Below are positions 18,765 to 63,978 of a DNA stretch of 64,000 nt, in pieces (position 1 is the first letter of the stretch; each line of letters starts with the position of its first letter). The position numbers and the translations under genes were made by a program. The notes beneath the pieces were generated by a model. That model was given only the letters and a program-made list of their open reading frames with translations. It did no database searches and was not told where the DNA came from. The stretch spans positions 2,790,001 to 2,854,000 of the forward strand of contig NZ_SHKK01000001.1 of the NCBI RefSeq assembly GCF_004217135.1. Direction: 5' to 3'. The stretch is from Micromonospora violae (GTDB lineage: Bacteria; Actinomycetota; Actinomycetes; Mycobacteriales; Micromonosporaceae).

Positions 18765-19373
18765 GTGGTGATCCACGTTGTCGTCGCCGAGGACATGGGT
18801 TTACTGCGCGGGGCACTCTGCGCCGCGCTGTCGGGAGAGGAGGACATGGAGGTGGTCGCCGACGTGGAGGGAGTCGGCGAACTGTTGGCGGTGGTCCGGC
18901 GATGCCGACCACAGGTGGTGGTGCTGGCACTGACACCGGAGCTGCCCGACCCGGTGGAGGTGGTCGCCCGGATCGGCGTCGAGGCGCCGCACACCGCCGT
19001 GCTGGCGTTGAGCCCTCGGTGGAGCCCCGCCCTGGTGGAGGCGGCGTTGGCGGCCGGCGCGCGCGGCCTGGTCGGCAAGGACAGCTCACTGGGCGAGTTG
19101 GTGCGGGCGATCCGCGCGCTCGCGGCCGGGGAACGGGCGATCGACCCGGCCGCGGCGGTGGCGGTGCTGAGTCCTCCGGAGATGCCGCTGACGCCGCGGG
19201 AGATGGACGTGCTGCGGATGGCGGCCGAGGGTTTGCCGCTGAAGGAGATCGCCGTCCGCCTCTATCTGGCACATGGGACGGTGCGTAATCACCTGTCGGT
19301 GATTCTGCGCAAGACCAGGGCGCGCAACCGGTTGGAGGCGGTGTCGCGGGCACGGCGTAACGGCTGGCTGTAG
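18765..19373 (+). CDS. LuxR-type regulator with degenerate receiver domain
   Basis: 202 residues. The receiver-like N-terminus keeps the acidic pair (VVVAEDMGLLRGAL), but the strand that should end in the phosphorylated Asp reads PQVVVLALTPELP, with Ala at that position. The C-terminal HTH is intact: LTPREMDVLRMAAEGLPLKEIA...GTVRNHLSVI. It therefore probably acts without phosphotransfer, like ligand-controlled pseudo-receivers. RamR/AmfR regulators of SapB loci are of this LuxR type, and the lanthipeptide operon lies just beyond the next gene, so this is a candidate activator. The GTG at 18765 has GGAG nearby; GTG 18768 is an alternative. Confidence 0.85.
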   Translation: MVIHVVVAEDMGLLRGALCAALSGEEDMEVVADVEGVGELLAVVRRCRPQVVVLALTPELPDPVEVVARIGVEAPHTAVLALSPRWSPALVEAALAAGARGLVGKDSSLGELVRAIRALAAGERAIDPAAAVAVLSPPEMPLTPREMDVLRMAAEGLPLKEIAVRLYLAHGTVRNHLSVILRKTRARNRLEAVSRARRNGWL

Positions 19374-19417: not shown

Positions 19418-19494
19418 TCGCCGTGCGGACCCAGTGAATGCGTGTTTGAATGTTGACGTTGTGTGATCATTATCGGAGTGCGGGAAGGCTCATC

Positions 19495-20079
19495 GTGATC
19501 CGTACCCTGCTCGCCCTGGACGGTGCCCTGGTGCTGGGCGCGCTGTCGTTCGTCCTCGCCGCCGAGGACGACATCCGCGTCGTGGCGGAGGTGGATCGCG
19601 GCGACGCGGTCTCCGCGGCGGTCCGCGCCCAGCGCCCCGACGTGCTGGTGGCCGACCTCGATGTCGTTGAGGGAGTCGATTCCGACCGCCTCGGTCCGTG
19701 CCCGGTGCTGGTGCTGGCCCGCCCGCAGCGGGCCTGGCGACTGCGCGGCATGATCTGCCCGAGCAGGACGGTCGGCATCCTGCGCAGCGACGCCGCCCCG
19801 CAGCGGGTCATCGACGGCATCCGCCGGCTCGCCCGCCGCGAGCCCGTGCTGGACGCGGATCTCGTCGTCGCGGCGCTGCGTTCGGACGGCCCGCTGACCA
19901 GCCGCGAGACGGAGGTGTTGCGGCTGACGGCGGCGGGGGCGCCGGTCGCGGAGGTGGCGGTGTCGCTCGGCCTCACCCGGGGCACCGTCCGCAACCATCT
20001 CGGTCGGATCGCGCGCAAGGTGGGTGCGCGGACCCGGGTGGAGGCGGTGCGGATGGCCGGCGAGGCGGGGTGGATCTGA
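19495..20079 (+). CDS. second LuxR-type regulator with atypical receiver
   Basis: 194 residues from a GTG at 19495 with GGAAGG six bases upstream. The C-terminal HTH is canonical (LTSRETEVLRLTAAGAPVAEVA...GTVRNHLGRIARK). The N-terminal domain keeps an Asp at the phosphorylation strand (DVLVADL), but the usual N-terminal acidic pair is reduced to a single Asp (LALDGALVLG), and the segment after it is shortened. It is a paralogue of the upstream regulator in the same orientation and converges on the lanthipeptide exporter genes with a 28-base gap. Target unknown; control of the ram-like operon is the natural hypothesis. Confidence 0.83.
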   Translation: MIRTLLALDGALVLGALSFVLAAEDDIRVVAEVDRGDAVSAAVRAQRPDVLVADLDVVEGVDSDRLGPCPVLVLARPQRAWRLRGMICPSRTVGILRSDAAPQRVIDGIRRLARREPVLDADLVVAALRSDGPLTSRETEVLRLTAAGAPVAEVAVSLGLTRGTVRNHLGRIARKVGARTRVEAVRMAGEAGWI

Positions 20080-20107
20080 CCGGCGCCGTCGGCGCGATGC
20101 GCGGGGC

Positions 20108-21886
20108 TCAGCCGGGCCGCGCCGCCGCCGTCTGGGACGGCAGCACCGAGTCGTCCCAGCAGCCGACGAGCACCCGGTAGGTGGCCGAACGGGTCAGCAA
20201 CTGTTCGTGCGTCCCGACCACGGGCTCGTCGCCGTCGAGGACCAGCACCCGGCCGGCCCGCAGCGCGGAGCTGATCCGGTGTGCGATCACCACGAGGCTG
20301 CCGGGGCGTCGGGCGAAGGCGGCCTCGACGGTCGCTTCCAGCGGCGGGTCCAGGTGACAGGTCGCCTCGTCGAGGATCACCAGCGGGGCGGGCGCCAGCC
20401 AGGCCCGGACCGCGGCGATGAGCTGGCGTTCACCGGCGGAGAGCAGGGCCGGCGCGACCGGTGCGCCCAGTCCGCCCAGGCGGGTCGCCAGGGGGCGCGC
20501 GCCGAGCGCGTCGAGGGCGCGCTCCAGCGTGTGGTCGTCGGCGTCCGGCCGCAGGTAGCGGAGGTTGTCGGCGAGACTGCCGGTGAAGACGTACGCCTCC
20601 TGGGGCACCAGCACCCGCATCCCGGCGAGAGCGGCCGGCTCGACGTCGGCGACCGTCGCTCCGGCCAGGTGGACCGTGCCTGCCTGCGGCGACACCAGCC
20701 CGGCGAGCAGGGCGGCCAGTGTGGACTTGCCGGCGCCGCTCGGGCCCACCACGGCGAGGTGGTCGCCGTCGGCCAGGGTCAGCGAGAAGTTCCGCAGGAC
20801 GGGCCGGGCGTGCGGGCCGTAGCCGAAGGTCAGGTCTCGGACCTCGACGGCTGGTGAACGGTCGGCAGGGCCGGTGGGCGGCCGGCGACGGGGCGTCCGG
20901 GCGACGGGCGGCGGCGGGCGCGGGTCGTCGGGGAGCGGGTAGGTACGCAGGATGTTCTCCAGGGTGACCGCGTAGCGCAGCCCGCCACCGCCGAGGCCCT
21001 GCACCAGGGTGTGCAGGGCGGGTTGCAGCCCGGTGGACACGTAGATCAACGCGCCCAGCACCGCGCCAGCGGTGAGACCACGCTCGATCAGCCACGGGGC
21101 GGCCACCATCAGCACCAGCAGTGGCAGCCAACCGCCGATGCCGAGGCTGAGGCTGCGGATCGCCGCCATCCGGGCGAGCCTGCGTTCGGCGGCGGCCTGC
21201 GCCGACACCCACCGTGCCACGTCGGCCGTCACGCGGGTCTGGGCACCGCAGGCCCGCACGTCACGGTGACCGGCCAGCGCCGCCGCCGCCGACTGGCCGA
21301 GCTGCTCACCGGCCCGGACGTAGGCGCGCTGGTGGGTGACCATCGCCGGCAACGCGGCGAGGAACACGACCAGACCCGCGACCAGCGGCGCGGCGGCCAG
21401 TCCCGCCGCCACCGGCGCCAGGGCGAGCAGGCCGAGCAGGGCCGCGCCGGCGGAGAAGAGGAAACCGCGGGTCACCATCAGCAGACCGGCGAAGGTGTCG
21501 CGGATGATCTCCATCTGGTGGGTCAGCCGGGTCACGGCGGCGCTGTCCGCCCGGCCACCCGACCGGATGGCCTCGCCCAACGCGCCCCGGACCACCTGAG
21601 CGGCCACCTCGTCGCGGAACGGCTCGACCACCGCGCCGAGGCTCCGGTACGTCCGACCGGTGGCCGCCGCGCCGACCAGCACGGCCACGGCGAGGACCCC
21701 CAACCAGGCCAGGCCGTTGAGGAGCCGTCCGGCCAGGAAACCCTCGTCGACGGCACGCGCGACCAGATAGCCGGCGAGCAGCGCGGGCAGCGCTTCGACA
21801 AGCGACCAGCCGCCGAGCCCGGCGAGCTCCCGTCGGCGGGCCCGCAACGCCCGCCAGGTCACCTGCCGTACGCCGGGACGGTTCAC
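20108..21886 (-). CDS. lanthipeptide ABC exporter, second half-transporter (RamB/AmfA-like)
   Basis: 592 residues, a fused membrane domain and ATPase. About six transmembrane helices occupy residues 1-300. The ATPase domain has Walker A VGPSGAGKST and Walker B LVILDEATCHLDP; the signature motif is LLSAGERQ instead of LSGGQ, and the switch His is VIAHR. Degenerate signatures are common in heterodimeric exporters, where one site hydrolyses ATP. Its GTG at 21886 overlaps the preceding transporter stop (GTGA), so the two halves should be made together and form the export pump for the SapB-like peptide. Confidence 0.85.
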   Translation of the reverse strand: MNRPGVRQVTWRALRARRRELAGLGGWSLVEALPALLAGYLVARAVDEGFLAGRLLNGLAWLGVLAVAVLVGAAATGRTYRSLGAVVEPFRDEVAAQVVRGALGEAIRSGGRADSAAVTRLTHQMEIIRDTFAGLLMVTRGFLFSAGAALLGLLALAPVAAGLAAAPLVAGLVVFLAALPAMVTHQRAYVRAGEQLGQSAAAALAGHRDVRACGAQTRVTADVARWVSAQAAAERRLARMAAIRSLSLGIGGWLPLLVLMVAAPWLIERGLTAGAVLGALIYVSTGLQPALHTLVQGLGGGGLRYAVTLENILRTYPLPDDPRPPPPVARTPRRRPPTGPADRSPAVEVRDLTFGYGPHARPVLRNFSLTLADGDHLAVVGPSGAGKSTLAALLAGLVSPQAGTVHLAGATVADVEPAALAGMRVLVPQEAYVFTGSLADNLRYLRPDADDHTLERALDALGARPLATRLGGLGAPVAPALLSAGERQLIAAVRAWLAPAPLVILDEATCHLDPPLEATVEAAFARRPGSLVVIAHRISSALRAGRVLVLDGDEPVVGTHEQLLTRSATYRVLVGCWDDSVLPSQTAAARPG

Positions 21887-23610
21887 GACCCACCGCCGGG
21901 CGGCTGGAAGACCGCACGGTAGTCGGGGTCGGCCCAGAGGTGCCGGTGCGGCGCCAGGCCGCGCAGCCGACCGCCGTCCAGCCAGGCGACGAGGTCGGCC
22001 GCCGCGGCCGCCGCGCTGCGATGGGTGACCACCAGTCGGGTACGCTCCCCGGCCCGACCCAGCACCGCCTCAGTGATCCGGTGTTCGGTCGCGGTGTCCA
22101 GGCTGGACGTCGCGTCGTCCAGGATGAGCAGCCGCTCGGCGGCGAACGCGCGCGCCAGGCCGAGGCGTTGGCTCTCGCCCCCGGAGAGCGGTGTGTCCAC
22201 CAGCGGGGTGCGGTAACCGCGGGGCAGACGGTCGATCACGTCGGCGACGGCCGCCATCCGGGCCGCCCGCAGCACCGCCGGGGTGGCCGGGCTCCGATCA
22301 ACCGGCGGCGTCGCCGCGTCGACCGGCAACGCCAACCCGATCGCGTCGTGAACTGTCGCGCCGATCAGCACCGGCCGGTCGAAGGCGTACCCGACGGCTC
22401 GACGCAGCGCCCCCTCGTCGAGGTCCCGCAGCGGCACACCGTCCAGTCGCACCTCACCGCCGTCGGGGTCGTACAGCCGTCCCGCCACGGCCGCCAGGGT
22501 CGACTTGCCGGCACCGGAGGCCCCGACGACGGCCACGGTGGCGCCGGCCGGCACGTCCAGGTCGATGCCGTCCAGGATGGGTCGGCCGTCGTCGCCGTAC
22601 ACGCGCACGCCGCGCAGTCGCAGGGTGCCGCCGCCGGGTGGCAGCGGCCGGTCGCCCGCCGGTGCGGCCGGCTGTGTCAGCAGCTCGGCGAGCCGGTGTG
22701 CGCCCGCGCGGCTGCGGACCAGGTGGTTCAGGGTGGCGAGCACGCCGCCGAGCCCGGCGCCGATGGCCGCGTACCGGACCGCGGCGACCAGTTCACCCGG
22801 CGTGAGCCAGCCCGCGCTCACGGCGTACCCGCCGACGGCGATGACGCTCAGGTTCAGCAGCGGCGCCACCGCCGAGGTGCGCGCACTCGCCCGGGCCAGC
22901 AGGTCCCAGCTGCGCCGGCCGTGCCGGTCCAGCTCCGGCAGGGCGGCCAGCACCCGTTCCTTTTCCCGGTGGGCGGTGCCGGCGGCGGCGATGGTCCGGG
23001 CGCCGGTCAGCGACTCCAGCAGTCGACCGGCGATGGTGCCGAGCACCCGTTGGTACCCGGCGCTCGCCGCCGAGGCGTCGGCCACGAAGACACGCATGAG
23101 GACGGTCAGCAGGCCGAGACCGGCGAGCAGGGTGACCCCGAGCAGCGGTTCCATGAGGGTGAGGGCGACGACACTGCCGAGCGGCGGAAGGACCGCCACG
23201 ACGGCCAGGACCACGGCGTTGCCGGCCTGGCCCGCGTCGGCGGCCTGCCCGGCCAGCCGGCCGACGAGATCACCCACCGGGTGCCGGCGGGTGGCGCGGA
23301 CGTCCACGGCGAACAGGTGACGCAGCAGACGCCGGCGCAGCCCGGCGGTGGCGCGTGCCGCACCGAACCCGCTGGCCAGGTCCGTCAGGGTGTCGACGCC
23401 GATGAGGACGACGACCAGGCCGCCGGCGGTCACCGCCCACCAGCCGGAACCGCCGGCGAGGGCGGCGTCGACGGCGCGGCCGAGGGCCGCGGGGAGCAAC
23501 AGTTCGGCGGCCGCGCCGAGCAGCGCGACCGCCGCGAGTCCGGCGGTCCAACCGCCGCCCGCCAGGACCGTCTGCCGCAGCAGCCTGTCCCCATTGGCGA
23601 ACGTCGGCAT
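21883..23610 (-). CDS. lanthipeptide ABC exporter, first half-transporter (RamA/AmfB-like)
   Basis: 575 residues. The ATG at 23610 is preceded by GGGAGG; a frame upstream to 23649 is less likely. An N-terminal six-helix domain is followed by an ATPase with Walker A VGASGAGKST, a canonical signature LSGGESQRLGLARA and Walker B LLILDDATSSLD, where Asp replaces the usual catalytic Glu of LLILDEA. Paired with the downstream half-transporter, whose signature is degenerate, the two make an asymmetric heterodimer. It lies 72 bases behind the precursor gene, beyond a hairpin that probably lowers its expression. Confidence 0.87.
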   Translation of the reverse strand: MPTFANGDRLLRQTVLAGGGWTAGLAAVALLGAAAELLLPAALGRAVDAALAGGSGWWAVTAGGLVVVLIGVDTLTDLASGFGAARATAGLRRRLLRHLFAVDVRATRRHPVGDLVGRLAGQAADAGQAGNAVVLAVVAVLPPLGSVVALTLMEPLLGVTLLAGLGLLTVLMRVFVADASAASAGYQRVLGTIAGRLLESLTGARTIAAAGTAHREKERVLAALPELDRHGRRSWDLLARASARTSAVAPLLNLSVIAVGGYAVSAGWLTPGELVAAVRYAAIGAGLGGVLATLNHLVRSRAGAHRLAELLTQPAAPAGDRPLPPGGGTLRLRGVRVYGDDGRPILDGIDLDVPAGATVAVVGASGAGKSTLAAVAGRLYDPDGGEVRLDGVPLRDLDEGALRRAVGYAFDRPVLIGATVHDAIGLALPVDAATPPVDRSPATPAVLRAARMAAVADVIDRLPRGYRTPLVDTPLSGGESQRLGLARAFAAERLLILDDATSSLDTATEHRITEAVLGRAGERTRLVVTHRSAAAAAADLVAWLDGGRLRGLAPHRHLWADPDYRAVFQPPGGGS

Positions 23611-23634
23611 CGGTCCTCCCGTGGGTACGCGGTT

Positions 23635-23666
23635 GCCCTGGGTGGGCACGTCTACCCACCCAGGGC
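23635..23666 (-). terminator. intercistronic hairpin behind precursor gene
   Basis: GCCCTGGGTGGG at 23635-23646 pairs perfectly with 23655-23666 around an 8-base loop. Placed between precursor and exporter genes, it fits a partial terminator or 3' stabiliser giving excess precursor mRNA, as known in other lanthipeptide operons. Confidence 0.65.
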
Positions 23667-23682
23667 CCCACGTGTGCGTGGA

Positions 23683-23802
23683 TCAGTTGCAGGTCGTGAC
23701 GGAGAGCGAGCTGTCGCCGCAGAGCAGCAGGCTCGCCCGGCTACCGCCACCGGTGCGGTCGGCCGGAGCCATCTCCAGGCCCTGGAGGTCCAGAAGTGCC
23801 AT
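23683..23802 (-). CDS. ramS: SapB/AmfS-like class III lanthipeptide precursor
   Basis: 39 residues, absent from typical ORF calls because of size. The leader is MALLDLQGLEMAPAD with the LLDLQ recognition motif of class III precursors. The core ends SRASLLLCGDSSLSVTTCN, holding two SxxSxxxC motifs (SRASLLLC and SSLSVTTC), each of which gives one lanthionine ring plus one dehydroalanine. It is nearly identical to the S. coelicolor SapB core as remembered, with Val for Ile and changes just before the ring. The mature peptide would be an amphiphilic surfactant aiding aerial hyphae. GGGAGGTG stands upstream of the ATG, which follows the synthetase stop by 5 bases. Confidence 0.95.
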   Translation of the reverse strand: MALLDLQGLEMAPADRTGGGSRASLLLCGDSSLSVTTCN

Positions 23803-23807
23803 GTCGT

Positions 23808-26405
23808 TCACCTCCCTTCCATCCGTTCGCTGGTCAGGTCGCCCCCGCTGTGACGGGGGAGTCTCGTCGCGCCCGGCAGGGGCGCGAGGAAGGGCAGCAC
23901 CGGCGGCTGGTCGTGCTGCGCGCTGGCCAGCGCGTACAGCACGCCGGCGGTGCCGGTGCCGAAGTCCATGGACAGCCGCAGCAACTGCTCACCGGGGAAC
24001 GCGGTCCCCTCCCGGTACGGCAGCGCGTGCCAGGTCAGCCGGTCCAGTTGCGCGTCGAGTTCGCGGCGGTCGGCATCGCCCGCCGAGGCGGCGAGGTAGG
24101 CGATGATGCCGGCCCGGCCGGCGAAGAGCCCGGACTGTGCGTAGAACGGTGAGCGGGCCGCCCGGCGGACCCCCGCGCTCGCCTCGGCGAACTGGTCGTC
24201 GGCACGGTGGCGTAGGTACTGGTCGAGGACCAGACCGATGCCGACGCTGCCGTGCGCCAGGTAGGGCATGGTGCGCCAGCCCTCGTTGACCTCCAGGGCA
24301 CCGTCCGGGCGCAGCACGCACCGGCGCAGGTCCTGACGCAGCGCCGTGGCGGCGTGCCCCAACAGCTCGTCGTCACCGCTGAGCTCGTAGAGCCGCACCA
24401 GCATCAGCGCCGCCCCGGTCCGGCCGCGCAGCAGCCCGGCGTACGGGTTGCGTCCGCCGCTGATGTCCGGGCCGGGGTCGTCAGCCAGCTGCCCGATCAC
24501 CCGCTCCGCGGCCCGCCATGCGGCGGTGTGCAACGATTCCTCCCCGGTACGCGCCGCGAGCTCGGCCAGGTTGAGCGCGATCCCGGACAGTCCGCTGGCC
24601 AGGCTGTGGTCCAGCCCGTCCAGGGGCTCTCGCAGGCAGATGTCGAGAACGTCCAGCGCGTCCTGCCGGCGTCCGAGGTGAACGAGCGCGTAGGCGACAC
24701 CGTGCAGCCCGTCGTAGAAGCCGCAGCGGGTGCCGGACGGGGGCGCTGTCGCGCGCCGGACCAGCCAGTCTTCGTGCTCGGGCCACCGCCCGGCGCCACT
24801 CTTGTCGAGCGCGTACAGCACCCCGGCCGCTCCGTGGGCGAGGTTGAGGCCGCCGCTGCGGAACTGTTCGATGTCACCGGGGAAGAGCCGGTCGTCGCGT
24901 TCGGGGGTGGCGCTGGCCACGATCGCCGTGGTCAGCCGTGCCCGCATCGCGTGCCAGTCGTCCGCGACCGGAGCCCCTGGGGGGTCGGCGCTGACCGGCG
25001 GAGCACCGGTGATCTCCGCGACCGCAGGGTCGAGGAAGGACCTCGGCACCGGGAAGTTCGCGGCGATGATGTCGGCCAGGTGCGCCACCTTCTCCGGGGC
25101 CAGCCGGACCAGCTGGGTCAGCGGCAGGAACAGCGCCAACCGCAGGCACGCCAGGGCGTACCGGTCGACTGCCGGCCCGCTTCGGTCCCTCGGTGCCGCG
25201 AAGCCCTGGTTGCGCAGCCCGGGTCGGCGGTGCCCGGCGATCGGGGCGGCCACTTCGAAGTCGACCAGGGCGACCCGGTCGTCCGGCCGGATCATGATGT
25301 TGAACAGGTGCAGGTCCCCGTAGACGAGGCCGCGCGCGTGGATCGCCGCCACCACGGATTCGACCTGCTCGTAGATCTGCCGGGCCCATCGGGCGTACGC
25401 CGCTCGGTCGTCGTCGGTCGCGTCGGCGTCGATCAGTGGGTACCGGTCGACCAGCACCTTGTTCAGTGGGCGGCCCTCGATGAACTCGAGTGCGAGGAAC
25501 CGGTGCTCGCCGAGCTCGAACTCGTCGTGTACCCGCGGCACCTGCGGCAGGTCGGCGAGTTGCCGCAGGGCCTGCGCCTCGCGGGCCAGCCGGGCGACGG
25601 CGTCGGTGCCGTCGGCGTCCAGGCCGGCGTGCGGTCGGGCCTCCTTCAGCACCACCTCGGTGTCGGTACGCAGGTCCCTGCCCACGTACAGTCCGCCGCC
25701 GTTGGAGAAGTGGATCACCCGCTCGATCCGGTACGGCACCTCGTTGGTGCTGGTGTCGTTGCGGGCGGCCAGGTGCGGGCCGAGGAAGTCGGGCAGGGTG
25801 ATCCAGGACGGTACGTGGAAGACGGGCTCGCGGCGGTCCGGCACCAGCGCGCCGGAGTCGTCCTCGATCGCCGGGACCACCTGGCCGTCGGCTGAGTGGC
25901 AGTAGCGGGCGGCGAAGCCGCCGTAGCGCACGTGGACCGGGCCGGTGCCGTAGCGGAGGTCACTGAGGATGTACGGTCCGGGTTCGCCGCTGAGCAGTTC
26001 GTCGAGCTCCTTGCAGGCCAGCTCCAGCTCCGCCTCGTCGTGGGGGTAGACGGTGATGAACTTTCCGCTGGCCGCCCGGGCGGCGTACTTGGAGTTGCGC
26101 AGGAGCAGCGTGCGCGGCCCGCGCAGGAACTTGAACGACAGGCCGCGGGGGACGCAGTAGGTCCAGACCGCGTCCAGCACCCGCTCGGCGTTGGGCAGTC
26201 CCGCTGACACGTGGATCTTCCAGCCCTGCTGCGGCAGCGAGCCGCCGTCGGGCGCGTAGATCAGCCAGTCGTCGAGCGGTTCGCGGCGCCAGCCGGCGGG
26301 CACCGGTCGTTCGGCGGCCGGGAAGACGGGCTGCGCGACGGCGCTGCCGAGCGAGTCGTAGAAGAGCCGATCTGCGGCGCAGTAGCTGTCGTAGCGTTCG
26401 TCCAC
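23808..26405 (-). CDS. ramC: class III lanthionine synthetase LanKC (RamC/AmfT-like)
   Basis: 865 residues from the GTG at 26405 (VDERYDSYCAADRLFYDS matches the start of RamC-type enzymes); an ATG at 26450 is the alternative. Order: N-terminal lyase-like domain to about 215, Ser/Thr kinase domain about 225-480 with VVLKE lysine at 254, YGDLHLFN catalytic loop at 362-369 and DFE metal site at 382-384, then a LanC-like cyclase from about 485 with GFYDGLHGVAYAL and LAHGSVGIGL. The LanC zinc Cys/His set is not obvious, as in other class III enzymes. It phosphorylates core Ser residues, eliminates phosphate and closes the rings of the precursor encoded 5 bases downstream. Confidence 0.93.
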   Translation of the reverse strand: MDERYDSYCAADRLFYDSLGSAVAQPVFPAAERPVPAGWRREPLDDWLIYAPDGGSLPQQGWKIHVSAGLPNAERVLDAVWTYCVPRGLSFKFLRGPRTLLLRNSKYAARAASGKFITVYPHDEAELELACKELDELLSGEPGPYILSDLRYGTGPVHVRYGGFAARYCHSADGQVVPAIEDDSGALVPDRREPVFHVPSWITLPDFLGPHLAARNDTSTNEVPYRIERVIHFSNGGGLYVGRDLRTDTEVVLKEARPHAGLDADGTDAVARLAREAQALRQLADLPQVPRVHDEFELGEHRFLALEFIEGRPLNKVLVDRYPLIDADATDDDRAAYARWARQIYEQVESVVAAIHARGLVYGDLHLFNIMIRPDDRVALVDFEVAAPIAGHRRPGLRNQGFAAPRDRSGPAVDRYALACLRLALFLPLTQLVRLAPEKVAHLADIIAANFPVPRSFLDPAVAEITGAPPVSADPPGAPVADDWHAMRARLTTAIVASATPERDDRLFPGDIEQFRSGGLNLAHGAAGVLYALDKSGAGRWPEHEDWLVRRATAPPSGTRCGFYDGLHGVAYALVHLGRRQDALDVLDICLREPLDGLDHSLASGLSGIALNLAELAARTGEESLHTAAWRAAERVIGQLADDPGPDISGGRNPYAGLLRGRTGAALMLVRLYELSGDDELLGHAATALRQDLRRCVLRPDGALEVNEGWRTMPYLAHGSVGIGLVLDQYLRHRADDQFAEASAGVRRAARSPFYAQSGLFAGRAGIIAYLAASAGDADRRELDAQLDRLTWHALPYREGTAFPGEQLLRLSMDFGTGTAGVLYALASAQHDQPPVLPFLAPLPGATRLPRHSGGDLTSERMEGR

Positions 26406-26937
26406 CGTCTCGCCGCCCCTCGCACTCGGCCGGCTGTTCCGGCGTTGCATCGAGTCTCATCGACGGGACGGGTCGGGCCCCAGTGCACTTAGTCATGACC
26501 TTCGATGCGTGGCGCACAGGTGGTCATGACAATAGTCAGGGCCAACCCGGGCACGGTCAGGTCGCGCCGACGTTCGGGTGTCGCGAAGGTGTGGTGACCA
26601 GGCCGAATCTGCGCTGATGCACGTCGATGTTGCCAGAACCAGCCAAGGCGTGTTGGAATGGCTCATATCGCCGCAGCACGGGGGCAACCGTGCTGGCAAC
26701 GGCAGCACGGGAGCATCGCAGTGCCGGCAGCGCGCCACCTTGGGCGGGCGCTCGCATGCCGCATCGCCGGGCCATCGGCATGACGACGGGCCTTCTGCCG
26801 GGCAGGCATCCTCGCCCGCCACAGGCACCCCCCGTCACCTGTCCCCCAACGACCGCCGCGCTCGACGTCTGACGCGTCCGCGGCGTCCGATTCGGCCTGC
26901 CAGCACACCAGAACCGGCGACGAGGTGAGAAGCGATC
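26406..26937. other. gene-free divergent control region
   Basis: 532 bases between the lanthionine synthetase and the divergent membrane protein. No convincing frame is present on either strand. It holds the paired GTCATGAC palindromes (26492-26530) and, at 26674-26695, an inverted repeat CAGCACGG/CCGTGCTG whose left arm recurs about 20 bases downstream. It is likely the regulated promoter region of the ram-like operon. Confidence 0.5.
26492..26530 (-). promoter_or_regulatory. paired palindromic sites upstream of lanKC
   Basis: The palindrome GTCATGAC occurs at 26492-26499 and again at 26523-26530, 31 bp apart centre to centre (three helical turns), about 90-125 bp before the synthetase start. 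Phased repeats like this suit a dimeric activator of the LuxR/RamR kind acting on this operon. Confidence 0.45.
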
Positions 26938-27513
26938 ATGATTTCCCGAGAGAGTCTGGCGGGGTGGTACCGACACCGCCTGGTGTGGGTGGCGGTCATC
27001 CTGCTGACGGTGTCAGCCGGCGCGGTCGTCCTGGTCAATCGGGCCGGCCCGGAGTCGAAGCCGGCGGATCTGCACGCGCAGATCATGGCCCGGATGCGCA
27101 CCACGCTCGAGCAGGCCGACCCCGGGGAGCACAACCACGCCGGACACAGTGTCCAGCAGGTGGCCACCGAGAAGCCGGCGGTGATCTGCGGGGTCCACGT
27201 CTACGGCTACGAGCCAACCGAGGTCACCGCGCTCGCCGACGTTCAGACGGTCTACGGCTTCCACCTCTGCGGGGTCGCCGAACAGAAGCGTCCCTGGGAT
27301 GTGGCGGTCAAGCTGGCCGGCCCCGTGATCATGGAAATGTCCACCGACCCACCGGGCATCCAGGTGGTCGAGGCGACCGCCGAGGTCATGTTCACCGACC
27401 GGGTACGGCAGATGTTCCCGGCCAAGTACGCGGAGTTGGCGCTCAAGGAGGCGCTGGCCGCCCCGGAGATGGCCGACCTGCGCCGCCGGTACGACGCCGC
27501 CGCCGGCCTGTGA
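26938..27513 (+). CDS. single-pass membrane protein of unknown function
   Basis: 191 residues. The ATG at 26938 has GAGGTGAG upstream. One N-terminal helix (WVAVILLTVSAGAVVLV, about 17-33) anchors an extracytoplasmic domain. This domain has two cysteines (VICGVHVYGYEPTE and YGFHLCGVAEQKRPWD) likely to form a disulfide, a His-rich patch (GEHNHAGHSVQQ) and a helical C-terminus. No family is recognised. It is divergent from the lanthipeptide operon and could share its control region. Confidence 0.75.
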   Translation: MISRESLAGWYRHRLVWVAVILLTVSAGAVVLVNRAGPESKPADLHAQIMARMRTTLEQADPGEHNHAGHSVQQVATEKPAVICGVHVYGYEPTEVTALADVQTVYGFHLCGVAEQKRPWDVAVKLAGPVIMEMSTDPPGIQVVEATAEVMFTDRVRQMFPAKYAELALKEALAAPEMADLRRRYDAAAGL

Positions 27514-27619
27514 CCATGTCGCACAGCCGGACGGGCCGGTCGTACCCGGACAGCTCGATCCACATCCGACTATAAATAGATCAGCATTGATATTTACGTT
27601 TATAGATGCGAGAGTTACT

Positions 27620-27633
27620 TGGGAGCGTTCCCA
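27620..27633 (+). promoter_or_regulatory. CebR-like operator upstream of LPMO
   Basis: TGGGAGCGTTCCCA differs by one base from the CebR consensus TGGGAGCGCTCCCA of streptomycetes. It lies 31 bases before the LPMO start in an AT-rich leader. A cellobiose-responsive LacI-family repressor would place the enzyme in the cellulose regulon. Confidence 0.75.
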
Positions 27634-27663
27634 TCGCTCGTACCGAAGAACGGAGGATGAACA

Positions 27664-28344
27664 GTGCTCACCCACAAGTCCGACCAATCCGGCGGGCGAT
27701 CCCGGTCAACCATCCGTCGGTCTCTCCAGGCGCTCGCCCTGCTGTTCGCCATGGTGATCGGCACGCTGCCCTGGACCGGCGCGGCCCAGGCCCACGGCAC
27801 CGTCATCAACCCGGCGAGTCGCGCCTACCAGTGCTGGCAATCCTGGGGAAACCAGCACATGAACCCCGCCATGCAGCAGCAGGACCCCATGTGTTGGCAG
27901 GCCTTCCAGGCCAACCCCGACACCATGTGGAACTGGATGAGCCAACTGCGTGACGGCCTCGCCGGCCAGTTCCAGGCCCGCACCCCGGACGGCCAGCTGT
28001 GCAGCAACGCCCTCTCCAGGAACAACTCGCTGAACCAGCCCGGCGCGTGGCGGGCCACCAACGTCAGCCGCAACTTGACGGTCCAGATGTACGACCAGGC
28101 CAGCCACGGCGCTGACTACTTCCGGGTCTACGTCACCAAGCAGGGATTCAACCCGGCCACCCAGCAGCTCGGGTGGGGCAACCTGGACCTGATCACGACG
28201 ACCGGACGTTACGCGCCAGCGCAGAACATCTCGTTCAACGTCTCGCTCCCGGACCGCAGCGGAAAGCACATCCTGTTCGTGGTCTGGAAGGCGTCGCACA
28301 TGGACCAGACCTACATGTGGTGCAGCGACATCAACGTCGGCTGA
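27664..28344 (+). CDS. secreted lytic polysaccharide monooxygenase, AA10
   Basis: 226 residues from a GTG with GGAGGA upstream. A signal peptide ends at AQA, so the mature protein begins with His44 (HGTVINPASRAYQCW), the N-terminal copper-brace histidine that AA10 enzymes require. ASHGADYFRVYVTKQG carries the second copper histidine, and cysteines form the usual disulfides. HILFVVWKASHMDQTYMWCSDINV is the conserved C-terminal strand. There is no carbohydrate-binding module; the protein is a single catalytic domain. Chitin- or cellulose-type substrate is not certain, but the CebR-like box upstream favours cellulose. A strong terminator follows. Confidence 0.93.
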   Translation: MLTHKSDQSGGRSRSTIRRSLQALALLFAMVIGTLPWTGAAQAHGTVINPASRAYQCWQSWGNQHMNPAMQQQDPMCWQAFQANPDTMWNWMSQLRDGLAGQFQARTPDGQLCSNALSRNNSLNQPGAWRATNVSRNLTVQMYDQASHGADYFRVYVTKQGFNPATQQLGWGNLDLITTTGRYAPAQNISFNVSLPDRSGKHILFVVWKASHMDQTYMWCSDINVG

Positions 28345-28480: not shown

Positions 28481-29236
28481 GTGGAGTCAGCGAAACCCGA
28501 CACCATCGCGCCACCCGGCTTCGTGCTCGCCGCCGGGCACCCGGTGCGGTGGCGCCTGCTCAGTGAACTGGCCCGCGGCGACCTCGCCGTGCACGAGCTG
28601 ACCGCGCTCCTCGGCCAACCACAGAATCTCGTCTCCTATCACCTGGCCAAGCTGCGCAAGGCCGAGCTGGTGGCCAGCCGACGCAGCAGCGCGGATGGCC
28701 GCGACACCTACTACTCACTCGACCTCGCCCGCTGCGGAGACCTGCTGTCCGGCACCGGCGCGGCCCTGCACCCCGGGTTACGACTCCACCGACCCGCGCC
28801 CGCCGCCTCGGTGACCGGGCGGGTGCTGTTCCTGTGCACCGGCAACAGCTCGCGATCACAGACGGCCGAAGCGCTGCTCCGCGACCGCACTGCCGGGGCC
28901 GTGCACGCGTTCAGCGCCGGCAGCCACCCGAAGCCGATCCATCCGCACGCGGTGAGCGTCATGGCCGCGCGCGGGATCGACCTGACCGGCGCCCGGCCCA
29001 AACACCTCGACGAGTTCACCGGTCAACGCTTCGACCTCGTGATCACTCTGTGCGACCGCGTCAAGGAAATCTGCCCCGAGTTCCCCGGCCATCCGCGACC
29101 GGTGCACTGGAGCATCCCCGACCCGGCCGCCGAGCCCGGCGAGCTACCCGCGTTCGAACGGGTCGCCGACGACCTCACCCCGCGCATCAATTTCCTGCTG
29201 CACACTCTCGCCCACCGCTTGGAGCAGACCTCATGA
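28481..29236 (+). CDS. ArsR regulator fused to ArsC/LMW-PTPase domain
   Basis: 251 residues. The N-terminal winged helix (about 1-90) has the ArsR pattern VRWRLLSELARGDLAVHELTALLG...LVSYHLAKLRKAELVASRR. The C-terminal domain (about 112-245) is a thioredoxin-type arsenate reductase of the low-molecular-weight phosphatase fold, with P-loop CTGNSSR (Cys119...Arg125) and the acidic loop SIPDPA. Such fusions sense arsenite and reduce arsenate in one polypeptide. No classic ArsR Cys pair is seen in the HTH part, so metalloid sensing may use other cysteines. No arsenite efflux pump is adjacent. A VOC protein overlaps it by 4 bases. Confidence 0.88.
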   Translation: MESAKPDTIAPPGFVLAAGHPVRWRLLSELARGDLAVHELTALLGQPQNLVSYHLAKLRKAELVASRRSSADGRDTYYSLDLARCGDLLSGTGAALHPGLRLHRPAPAASVTGRVLFLCTGNSSRSQTAEALLRDRTAGAVHAFSAGSHPKPIHPHAVSVMAARGIDLTGARPKHLDEFTGQRFDLVITLCDRVKEICPEFPGHPRPVHWSIPDPAAEPGELPAFERVADDLTPRINFLLHTLAHRLEQTS

Positions 29237-61337: not shown

Positions 61338-61347
61338 GGGGAAATTG

Positions 61348-63978
61348 GTGAGGCCTGTCCTGCGAAGAATCACGAGCGCGTCCACGGCGCTGCTCGTTGC
61401 CGGCGTGGCAACCCTGGGGTTGGGGACGCCGGCACTGGCGGCGCCGGGTGACGCGAGCGCCCGCGGTGTCGTCGTCGACCTGTCCGCCGAGGTGGCCGGG
61501 ATCGCCGTCATCACCGCCGACGCCGTCATCGGAACGGCCACCGCTCCGGCCGCCGGCGGCACCGACACCGAGACCCTGCTGGCCATCTCGATTCCCGGAG
61601 CGCTCGGAGTGACCGCCAGCGGCACCGTCGAGGAGGTCACCGCCACCCGAGCGGCGGCCTCGTCGTCCGCGTCCGCCAGCGTCAACGGCCTCAACCTGGC
61701 CGTGCTCGGTGTCGACGTGCTGGACGCTACCGAGGTCAGCGCCACCGCGACCTGCCCCCAGGTCGGCCCGACCAGCGCGGACACCACGCTCGTCGGACTG
61801 GAGTTGTTCGGCACGGCGGTGACGTTGACGGCGAACACGCCCGCCGTCGTCGGCAGCGCCGCTGTGGTGGTGCCGGGTCTGGTGGGCGCGAGCCTGAACG
61901 CCTCGTTGACCCGCGTCGAGACGACCACCGCCACCGGTGCCACCGCGATCACCGTGCGGGCCGTCCTCACCCTGTCGGGCACCCTGCTCGGCGTACCGAC
62001 GACCATTCCGGTCGGGACGGTGATCGTCGCCGAGGCCATCTGTGAGCGTCCGCCGGCGGCACCCGCAGCCGCGACGATCACCCCGGACGAGGGACCGCAG
62101 TCGGGTGGCCAGACGGTGACGATCACCGGTACGGGCTTCATTCCGGGCGGCACCACCGTCACCTTCGACGGCGCACCGGCCACCAATGTCACCGTCAACC
62201 CCGGCGGCACATCGCTGACCGCCGTCACCCCGCCTGGCGCGGTCGGCCCTGCGTCGGTCCTCGTCAGCACGGTGAACGGCACATCGCCGCCGCTCGCCTA
62301 CACGTACCTGGCCGACGGCAGCGGGGCCCTCGTCACCGGCCTCGCGCCCACGTCCGGGCCGACCGTCGGTGGCACGACGGTGACGATCACCGGCACCGGG
62401 TTCACCGGCGTGGCAGGTGTCGACTTCAACGGGCTGCCCGGCACCGGCTTCACGGTCAACCCGGCCGGCACCACGATCACCGTGGTGACCCCGCCGAACC
62501 CGGCGGGACCGGCCGCGGTCGAGCTGATCTTCCCGGCCGGTGAGGTGACCGCGCCGACGTTCACCTACATCGCGCCGACGATCACCTCGATCGTGCCGGA
62601 CACCGGACCGAATACCGGTGGCACGACGGTGACGATCACCGGCACCGGGTTCACCGGCGCGACCGGTGTGACCTTCGGCGACACGCCGGGCACCAACCTC
62701 GTCGTGGACCCGAGCGGCACCTCGCTGACCGTGGTCACACCGCCCGGGCCGGTTGGTCCGGTGGACGTGACAGTGCTCGTCCCGGGCGCGAACGCGACAG
62801 CACCGAACGGGTTCACCTACGTGGCCGCGCCTCCGAGCGCCGCCTCGATCACGCCGAACGCGGGTCCGCAGTCCGGCGGCCAGACGGTGACGATCACCGG
62901 CGCCGGCTTCATTCCCGGTGACACCACCGTCACCTTCGACGGGGTGCCCGCCACGAACGTCACGGTCAACGCGGGCGGCACCTCACTGACGGCGGTCACG
63001 CCGCCCGGTGCGGTCGGCCCGGCGGTGGTCGTGGTGAGCACCGGCGGCGGTACGGCTGCTCCGCTGGACTACACGTACCTCGCCGACGGCAGCGCCGCGA
63101 CCGTGACCGGGCTGAACCCGACGACCGGGCCGACCTCGGGTGGCACCACTGTGACGATCACCGGGACCGGGTTCACCGGGGCGACCGGGGTGAGCTTCGA
63201 CGGGGTACCCGGAACCGGATTCACGGTCAACCCGGGCGGCACCACGATCACCGTGGTGACTCCGCCGAACACGGCAGGACCCGCGGACGTGCGAGTGGTG
63301 TTCCCGGCGGGCACCGCCACCGCGCCACCGTTCACGTACGTCGCTCCGACGATCGCCTCCATCGTGCCGAACACCGGACCGACGACCGGCGGTACCACGG
63401 TGACGATCACCGGGACCGGCCTCACCGGCGCCACCGGCGTGAACTTCGGCAACACACCGGGGACCAACCTCGTCGTGAGTCCGGACGGCACGTCGCTGAC
63501 CGTCGTCACCCCACCGGGCCTGCCCGGCTCGGTGGACGTGACGGTGCTACTGCCCGGGGAGGATGTCACCGAGCCGGACGGGTTCACCTACGAGGTCGCC
63601 CCACCGCGCATCGACACGGTCACCCCGGGTCAGGGGCCGACCGGGGGCGGAACGACCGTGACGGTCGGCGGTTCCGGGTTCGTGCCGGGGGGAACAACTG
63701 TCACGATCTGCGGAAGGACCATCCCGGCCAGCCAGGTCAGCGTGGCAGCGGACGGTCGCTCGTTGACCTTCCGCACGCCACCCTGCGCGGCCGGGACCAC
63801 CACGGTCACCGTGAGCACCGACGGTGGAACCTCCAACGGGCTCACCTTCCGCTACTTCCCACGAATCCTGCCGGTGACCGGTGACAGCATCGCCTCGCCA
63901 CTGACCGCTGGCGCGATGCTGGCTCTGCTCGGCGTCGTCCTCATGCTGCTGACCCGCCGTCGGCAGCGCGCCAGCTGA
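61348..63978 (+). CDS. sortase-anchored surface protein with seven IPT/TIG domains
   Basis: 876 residues from the GTG at 61348 (GGGGGA five bases upstream; TTG 61345 rejected). Signal peptide ends near LAAPG. A unique N-terminal domain (about 30-235) of the choice-of-anchor type is followed by seven IPT/TIG Ig-like domains starting near residues 240, 328, 412, 499, 584, 669 and 754. Domains 1-3 and 4-6 form a duplicated block of about 256 residues. The C-terminus has LPVTG (841-845), a hydrophobic helix and TRRRQRAS, a full cell-wall sorting signal. It probably projects from the wall as an adhesin or spacer. Confidence 0.88.
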   Translation: MRPVLRRITSASTALLVAGVATLGLGTPALAAPGDASARGVVVDLSAEVAGIAVITADAVIGTATAPAAGGTDTETLLAISIPGALGVTASGTVEEVTATRAAASSSASASVNGLNLAVLGVDVLDATEVSATATCPQVGPTSADTTLVGLELFGTAVTLTANTPAVVGSAAVVVPGLVGASLNASLTRVETTTATGATAITVRAVLTLSGTLLGVPTTIPVGTVIVAEAICERPPAAPAAATITPDEGPQSGGQTVTITGTGFIPGGTTVTFDGAPATNVTVNPGGTSLTAVTPPGAVGPASVLVSTVNGTSPPLAYTYLADGSGALVTGLAPTSGPTVGGTTVTITGTGFTGVAGVDFNGLPGTGFTVNPAGTTITVVTPPNPAGPAAVELIFPAGEVTAPTFTYIAPTITSIVPDTGPNTGGTTVTITGTGFTGATGVTFGDTPGTNLVVDPSGTSLTVVTPPGPVGPVDVTVLVPGANATAPNGFTYVAAPPSAASITPNAGPQSGGQTVTITGAGFIPGDTTVTFDGVPATNVTVNAGGTSLTAVTPPGAVGPAVVVVSTGGGTAAPLDYTYLADGSAATVTGLNPTTGPTSGGTTVTITGTGFTGATGVSFDGVPGTGFTVNPGGTTITVVTPPNTAGPADVRVVFPAGTATAPPFTYVAPTIASIVPNTGPTTGGTTVTITGTGLTGATGVNFGNTPGTNLVVSPDGTSLTVVTPPGLPGSVDVTVLLPGEDVTEPDGFTYEVAPPRIDTVTPGQGPTGGGTTVTVGGSGFVPGGTTVTICGRTIPASQVSVAADGRSLTFRTPPCAAGTTTVTVSTDGGTSNGLTFRYFPRILPVTGDSIASPLTAGAMLALLGVVLMLLTRRRQRAS

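Follow-up and report, generated by a model that had tools for sequence, protein, structure and literature searches.

The peptides SapB and AmfS are described as morphogens of aerial growth (PMC13380574, PMC4255298), and SapB is described as common in actinomycetes (PMC9967187). SapB is a surfactant that assists Streptomyces in its aerial growth. Within Micromonospora, Carro et al. 2018 (PMC5765111) report the sapB cluster from nearly half of the genomes while observing no aerial hyphae in their strains; they cite scattered reports of Micromonospora aerial hyphae and raise the possibility that aerial sporulation was lost in the genus. Another study, which reports SapB precursors from Micromonospora, disagrees with Carro et al. 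in classing the genus as a former of aerial hyphae (PMC9011353). The existence of a SapB locus in Micromonospora is already known and is not a discovery of the present study. The earlier note on this DNA had pointed to such a peptide outside Streptomyces; this is correct, the nearest named relatives being Micromonospora, but it is not new, having been published for the genus (PMC5765111, PMC9011353, PMC9967187). Among the literature matches listed, the titles and the opening parts of the abstracts hold no report of the peptide having been isolated from Micromonospora. What is added here is a pair of regulators, a single-copy promoter element, the absence of chaplin matches, and the presence of two LanKC lineages for nearly the same core. 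On balance, we favor the view that the locus is a Micromonospora version of the ram/amf locus, making a regulated, exported, SapB-like surface peptide without chaplins.

The operon, its synthetase and its precursor

Within the window, the 64,000-nt stretch of Micromonospora violae DNA that was analysed, family models and coordinates identify lanKC, ramS and the genes for two half-ABC exporters (ABC1 and ABC2) as a single minus-strand operon of the ram/amf class III lanthipeptide type, in which the synthetase, the precursor and two ABC half-transporters expected of such a locus stand together (Table 1). The four genes lie where the earlier note had placed them, and its description of a complete, SapB-like class III locus agrees with family-model scores over the cut-offs, with the gene order and with the intact LanKC motifs. 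The extent it gave, 20108–26405, covers the four genes, but the conserved unit reaches beyond it on both sides, to a promoter element upstream of lanKC and to the two genes for LuxR-type regulators.

Table 1. Features of the M. violae locus, in positions of the window
Feature	Position	Strand	Basis
lanKC (ramC/amfT type), 865 aa	23808–26405	−	NF038151, PF25816; GTG at 26405, stop ends at 23808
RamS/AmfS-type precursor, 39 aa	23683–23802	−	NF033212, PF19402
Half-ABC exporter 1 (ABC1, ramA/B-like)	21883–23649	−	PF00664 and PF00005 above cut-off; motifs
Half-ABC exporter 2 (ABC2)	20108–21886	−	PF00005 above cut-off; motifs; gene order in relatives
LuxR2, convergent LuxR/NarL-type regulator, RamR-like by position	19450–20079	+	GerE 55.5 bits
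LuxR1, second convergent LuxR-type regulator	18765–19373	+	GerE 56.0, Response_reg 34.8 bits
57-bp conserved promoter element, likely operator/promoter of the operon	26482–26538	−	Phylogenetic footprint

All reading frames of the operon are open in the M. violae genome. On direct reading, the ramS ATG lies 5 nt past the LanKC stop codon and is preceded by GGGAGG at a spacing of 8 nt, and the ABC1 and ABC2 genes share a 4-nt overlap, as in coupled translation. A simple scan of positions 20000–27000 gave no intrinsic terminators or sigma-70 promoters. The order LanKC–precursor–two ABC genes is common to most of the related loci fetched (L025 is one exception), which argues that the arrangement is not due to chance. 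The window spans positions 2790001–2854000 of a 7.14-Mb genome in a single contig, in which there is one full LanKC and three further matches to the kinase domain only.

LanKC combines lyase, kinase and LanC-like cyclase domains in a single chain. It scores 1123.2 bits against NCBIfam model NF038151 (cut-off 575; E = 0) and 382.3 bits against the class IV model, below the cut-off of 650, which places it in class III; RamC_N (PF25816) matches with 275.8 bits, and Pkinase and LANC_like also exceed their Pfam cut-offs. In an alignment of 113 LanKCs it retains the consensus at all 190 near-invariant columns, defined as those at least 97% conserved among the other LanKCs. The residues kept include K63, H65, K92, K106, K115, D149, D364 and D382-F383-E384, of which the lysines, the histidine and the DFE triad are counterparts, matched by motif and spacing rather than by superposition, of residues tested in ThurKC (PMC10604976). 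Its relatives of solved structure include 9wj0 (E 7.4e-87) as well as 8sao, 8sap and 8sam, which are LanKC entries (E ~7e-85). Among the best 80 of 195 loci on GTDB contigs, the closest LanKCs are those of Micromonospora species such as M. noduli, M. saelicesensis, M. trifolii and M. alfalfae, at 92–94% identity.

The precursor, MALLDLQGLEMAPADRTGGGSRASLLLCGDSSLSVTTCN, is placed in the SapB/AmfS family by two models, with scores well over their cut-offs (NF033212 SapB_AmfS, 64.1 bits, cut-off 25; Pfam RamS PF19402, 59.6 bits, cut-off 24.3). Its core, SRASLLLCGDSSLSVTTCN, contains the two SxxSxxxC motifs that had been noted in it, S21..S24...C28 and S31..S34...C38, and presumably differs from the SapB core in a single change of Ile to Val. 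The identical core is also encoded in a genome of the Streptomyces LanKC clade (L116/L149). Twenty other collected copies are identical to this precursor; the pattern used to collect the 111 Micromonospora copies itself fixed most core letters, and the use of two locus collections led to some species being counted twice. An estimate of purifying selection on the core from pN/pS was dropped, since the collecting pattern had fixed most of the letters in question.

When the search left the core free, a precursor was found in 37 of the 39 Micromonospora/Verrucosispora loci examined, and 36 of these 37 carry a SapB-type core; the core of L028 differs, no precursor was found in L025, and L011 ends at its contig. 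Such constancy is not the general expectation for antagonistic peptides, which often diversify, and we know of no antibacterial activity of SapB. Both points speak against the reading that the peptide is mainly antagonistic, or signals against other microbes, with surface activity secondary. We regard that reading as improbable, even though a class III member with antibacterial activity is known, the ThurKC pathway product being active against B. cereus (PMC10604976), and Micromonospora is said not to grow aerially (PMC5765111). Among 20 further Micromonospora genomes, one locus (L172) carries a core of another type and three (L173–L175) carry a diverged core (SGLSLLLCEGSSLSVTSCD and near variants); these three loci are of the same type and their LanKCs fall inside the SapB group.

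Two observations concern the nucleotide sequence of the core. Over the 21 loci, out of 44, that remained once near copies had been taken out, its synonymous sites vary less than those in invariant LanKC columns (P 0.006). Codons 3–13 can form a hairpin and fold more stably than synonymous versions in 12 of these 21 loci (z < −2.3), with z between +0.04 and −1.0 in the other nine. An RNA element in the core was considered and set aside: the stretch had been picked post hoc, the 191-nt precursor region does not fold unusually (z −1.6), and the codon bias that goes with high expression of a gene could explain the signal.

The promoter element and the convergent regulators

An alignment of 13 loci reveals a single conserved block in the region upstream of LanKC. 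This 57-bp element (TGACTATTGTCA ... GTGCGCCACGCA ... TGACTAAGTGCACT) begins 133 bp upstream of the LanKC GTG. A strict pattern derived for it occurs in exactly one copy, never two, in 51 of 151 Micromonospora genomes, and the same pattern read backwards has no copy in any of the 151. In 46 of the 51 element-bearing genomes a RamS match lies 2735–2965 bp downstream on the same strand; in two of the remaining five RamS is on another contig (G029, G031), and the other three (G001, G032, G104) are taken up below. The strict pattern is missing from 31 of the 79 RamS-positive genomes; of these, ten that were fetched belong to the second Micromonospora lineage compared below, and two (G036, G081) to the first. 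Second-lineage loci keep TGACnnAnnnCACT in 17 of 20 cases.

A shorter form, GTG-N5-[CG]-(N)-CA-N8-14-TGAC within 220 bp upstream of LanKC, is present in 55 of 113 loci. It was counted in four sets that cover 101 of the 113 and within which related rows are not independent: 34 of 38 first-lineage loci (expected 0.5), 8 of 20 second-lineage loci (expected 0.2), 2 of 6 loci of the Streptomyces clade (expected 0.1), which were already known when the pattern was made, and 7 of 37 loci from other genera outside the making of the pattern (expected 0.42). The reversed control gave no match in any of the four sets.

At least two convergent LuxR genes are found in all 34 Micromonospora/Verrucosispora loci that reach at least 6 kb past LanKC (39 loci, five of which were left out because they are cut by contig ends). 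Among the other genera, 33 of 41 loci reach far enough, and these have one convergent LuxR gene in 24 cases, two in four (Actinoplanes KI2, Catenuloplanes and two Plantactinospora) and none in five. The two M. violae regulators are ~34–46% identical to the gene at the same place in most other genera, and their kinship to RamR/AmfR is one of position. One study reports ramR only from streptomycetes (PMC4255298); a LuxR gene in that place is therefore more widespread, RamR-like by position. Both receiver domains look atypical. That of LuxR2 is degenerate, scoring 15.4 bits for Response_reg, about half the cut-off of 30.2, and in LuxR1 the usual phospho-Asp site reads, by eye, VVVLALTPE, with the Asp replaced, where relatives read VVLVDL; the loss appears to be a trait of the window clade.

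Control through bldA, as in the ram cluster with its conserved TTA codon, was also considered. LuxR1 contains the sole TTA codon of the locus, at codon 13; among relatives it recurs at the same codon only in L033 and at the next codon in L030 and L031, and it stands elsewhere in a regulator in L008, L038 and several loci from other genera. This candidate was dropped because the codon is not conserved.

Other features of the window were noted in passing. Two ORFs diverge from the operon at positions 26938–28344 (+), one of 191 aa that matches nothing in Pfam and one of 226 aa that, from reading, resembles a chitin-active LPMO; both accompany LanKC in just six of the closest loci (L006, L009, L011, L029, L032, L034). 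The ORF at 28481–29236 (+), likewise from reading, presumably encodes a fusion of an ArsR-type repressor with a low-molecular-weight phosphatase/arsenate reductase domain. An 877-aa ORF at 61345–63978 (+) contains repeated IPT/TIG-like units (GGTTVTITGTGFTG...), with a pair of 300-nt repeats 771 bp apart, and ends in LPVTGD, a hydrophobic stretch and RRRQR; we take it to be a sortase-anchored surface protein. Four of the window's six TGACNNNNGTCA palindromes lie within 1.3 kb (62216–63508) in its repeat units, and their clustering is probably a by-product of those repeats.

LanKC lineages and the predicted product

Mapped on a tree of 113 LanKCs, the SapB label requires seven changes, compared with 34.5 in shuffles; some of the seven reflect rows in which the precursor was overlooked. 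Of four rows labelled "none" in this tree, L155 and L158 carry RamS matches and L011 ends at its contig. A 44-row tree groups the SapB LanKCs of Micromonosporaceae with loci whose cores have three ring motifs (99 SH-aLRT, midpoint root) and those of the Streptomyces clade with Actinoallomurus. Uniting the two SapB groups is rejected (p_AU 0.00045) in a test that used a quick tree, 44 of the 113 rows and groups named after the first tree was known. Thus, nearly one core is carried by two LanKC lineages rather than by one clade, which could mean either that an old core has been kept by selection or that it was gained separately. At one serine of the core, the Micromonosporaceae rows shown use TCG, apart from L026 with Gly at this site, and the Streptomyces-clade rows use AGC. 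A recent transfer from Streptomyces was considered and is not supported, given the two separate LanKC groups and the TCG versus AGC codons.

For the four-fold dehydrated core, GGGSRASLLLCGDSSLSVTTCN minus 4 H2O, the computed monoisotopic mass is 2024.94 Da, and the series of N-terminal trims gives 2125.99, 2024.94, 1967.92, 1910.90 and 1853.88 Da. The pattern of two lanthionines and two dehydroalanines predicted in the earlier note is borrowed from SapB by analogy. Two labionins would have the same mass as two lanthionine and dehydroalanine pairs, so that the sequence cannot decide between them, and ring type is described as hard to predict from the synthetase sequence alone (PMC13380574). It is therefore possible, though we think it the less likely outcome, that the same locus makes a product with two labionins, a morphogen like durhapeptin or rochsin A. 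The two SxxSxxxC motifs are common to both kinds of core, rochsin A and a variant of durhapeptin, with two labionins, induce aerial hyphae (PMC13380574), and the M. violae LanKC does not share a clade with the SapB synthetases of Streptomyces; the core, however, almost matches that of SapB, which is reported to contain two Lan units (PMC13380574).

With respect to export, ABC1 has the Walker B motif LLILDDAT and the consensus signature LSGGE, and ABC2 has LVILDEAT and LSAGE; against PF00664 ABC2 scores 16.1 bits, under the cut-off of 28. The combination of LSGGE and DD in ABC1 with LSAGE and DE in ABC2 suits a predicted heterodimer with one degenerate ATP site. A Pfam search of the exporters listed no C39 peptidase domain, and the leader is therefore probably cut by a protease coded outside the locus. 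The genome contains six M1-peptidase matches, and AplP, an M1 enzyme, is reported to cleave several class III leaders (PMC10885120); an AplP-like M1 enzyme is our best guess.

Returning to the favored reading, of a regulated and exported SapB-like surface peptide, homology suggests the following mechanism. The two position-conserved LuxR-type regulators would act at the 57-bp element and switch on lanKC–ramS–ABC1–ABC2. LanKC would bind the MALLDLQGLE leader helix, phosphorylate and eliminate Ser21, Ser24, Ser31 and Ser34, and close the two SxxSxxxC rings; the ABC1/ABC2 heterodimer would export the peptide, with the leader removed by the protease coded elsewhere. The product would be an amphipathic, SapB-like peptide, probably coating spores or the colony surface and lowering surface tension, without chaplins.

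Occurrence, function and comparison with known systems

RamS (PF19402) is found in 79 of 151 Micromonospora genomes and has no match in the other 72, so the genus can do without it. Across the class it matches 48 of 394 genomes, 47 of them with scores above the cut-off, in 14 of 137 genera, and across the family NF033212 matches 82 of 200, 81 of them above the cut-off, in 25 of 44 genera; neither model has a match in the 14 standard control genomes. Three Micromonospora genomes carry incomplete loci. In G001 (L190) the element is followed by a LanKC piece (residues 526–714) and part of a LuxR1-like gene, and in G032 (L191) by a LanKC piece of 44 residues. Micromonospora sp. ATCC 39149 (L025; L192 in G104, presumably the same strain from its equal promoter letters) has LanKC, the element and both regulators, with the precursor and ABC genes not found between them. 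We read these as traces of locus loss, decaying in G001 and G032 and partial in G104.

Patchy occurrence, these decayed and partial copies and the possible loss of aerial sporulation in the genus raised by Carro et al. (PMC5765111) would suit a relic that came down from an ancestor with aerial growth and has since lost its function. We consider this quite unlikely for M. violae, where every frame is open and LanKC is intact at the near-invariant columns. Moreover, the strict promoter element persists in relatives at LanKC identity down to 68–73% (L027, L030, L031), and both regulators persist in loci whose LanKC is 64–66% identical.

Chaplins (PF03777) have no match in any of the 151 Micromonospora genomes, M. 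violae included, which departs from the Streptomyces aerial system. Because the 14 standard controls give no match, 14 genomes reached through the loci served as positive control. Twelve of them match, all six named Streptomyces with 5–12 matches each; the two misses are the Actinophytocola and Plantactinospora genomes. Weaker matches occur in Amorphoplanes, Catenuloplanes and Planosporangium, which belong to the Micromonosporaceae, and the absence in Micromonospora is therefore not family-wide. The earlier note called the product a morphogenetic surfactant. This fits the function of the family, but since the strains are described as without aerial hyphae (PMC5765111) and chaplins number 0 of 151, the SapB role cannot be transferred unchanged.

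The mismatch lies in the retention of a peptide known for aiding aerial growth, together with dedicated regulators and a promoter, by a genus that is described as free of aerial hyphae and in which chaplins have no match here. Tentatively, SapB may be used here outside the aerial-hypha/chaplin program, with an ancient and almost unaltered core, a separate LanKC lineage, a RamR-like pair at a single promoter and a surface function that predates or replaces the aerial role. If this is true, the surface function would be spore release, colony wetting, or submerged or plant-surface growth. Given the masses predicted for the product, a promoter element with one copy in the genome and the pair of regulators, the question of SapB without chaplins can be tested directly in one strain.

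With the ramCSAB/ramR locus and SapB of Streptomyces coelicolor, and with the amf locus and AmfS of S. griseus, the M. violae locus shares gene content and order and a nearby LuxR-type regulator. It differs from them in a shorter leader with GGG before the core, in having two convergent regulators instead of one, in a LanKC that is 47–54% identical to the SapB LanKCs of the Streptomyces clade and forms a separate clade, and in a genomic setting that lacks the chaplin matches of the Streptomyces system. The three-ring loci (Glycomyces, Actinophytocola, Dactylosporangium and others among L049–L077) have LanKCs that group with those of the Micromonosporaceae SapB loci, but their cores, with three ring motifs, are not SapB-like. 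The second Micromonospora lineage (e.g., L036, L041) has the same type of core, the same order and two regulators, and differs in a LanKC 64–66% identical, in two to three tandem precursors and in having the promoter element only in part. Finally, the other Micromonospora SapB clusters (PMC5765111, PMC9011353, PMC9967187) are of the same type as that of M. violae and differ from it in nothing essential.
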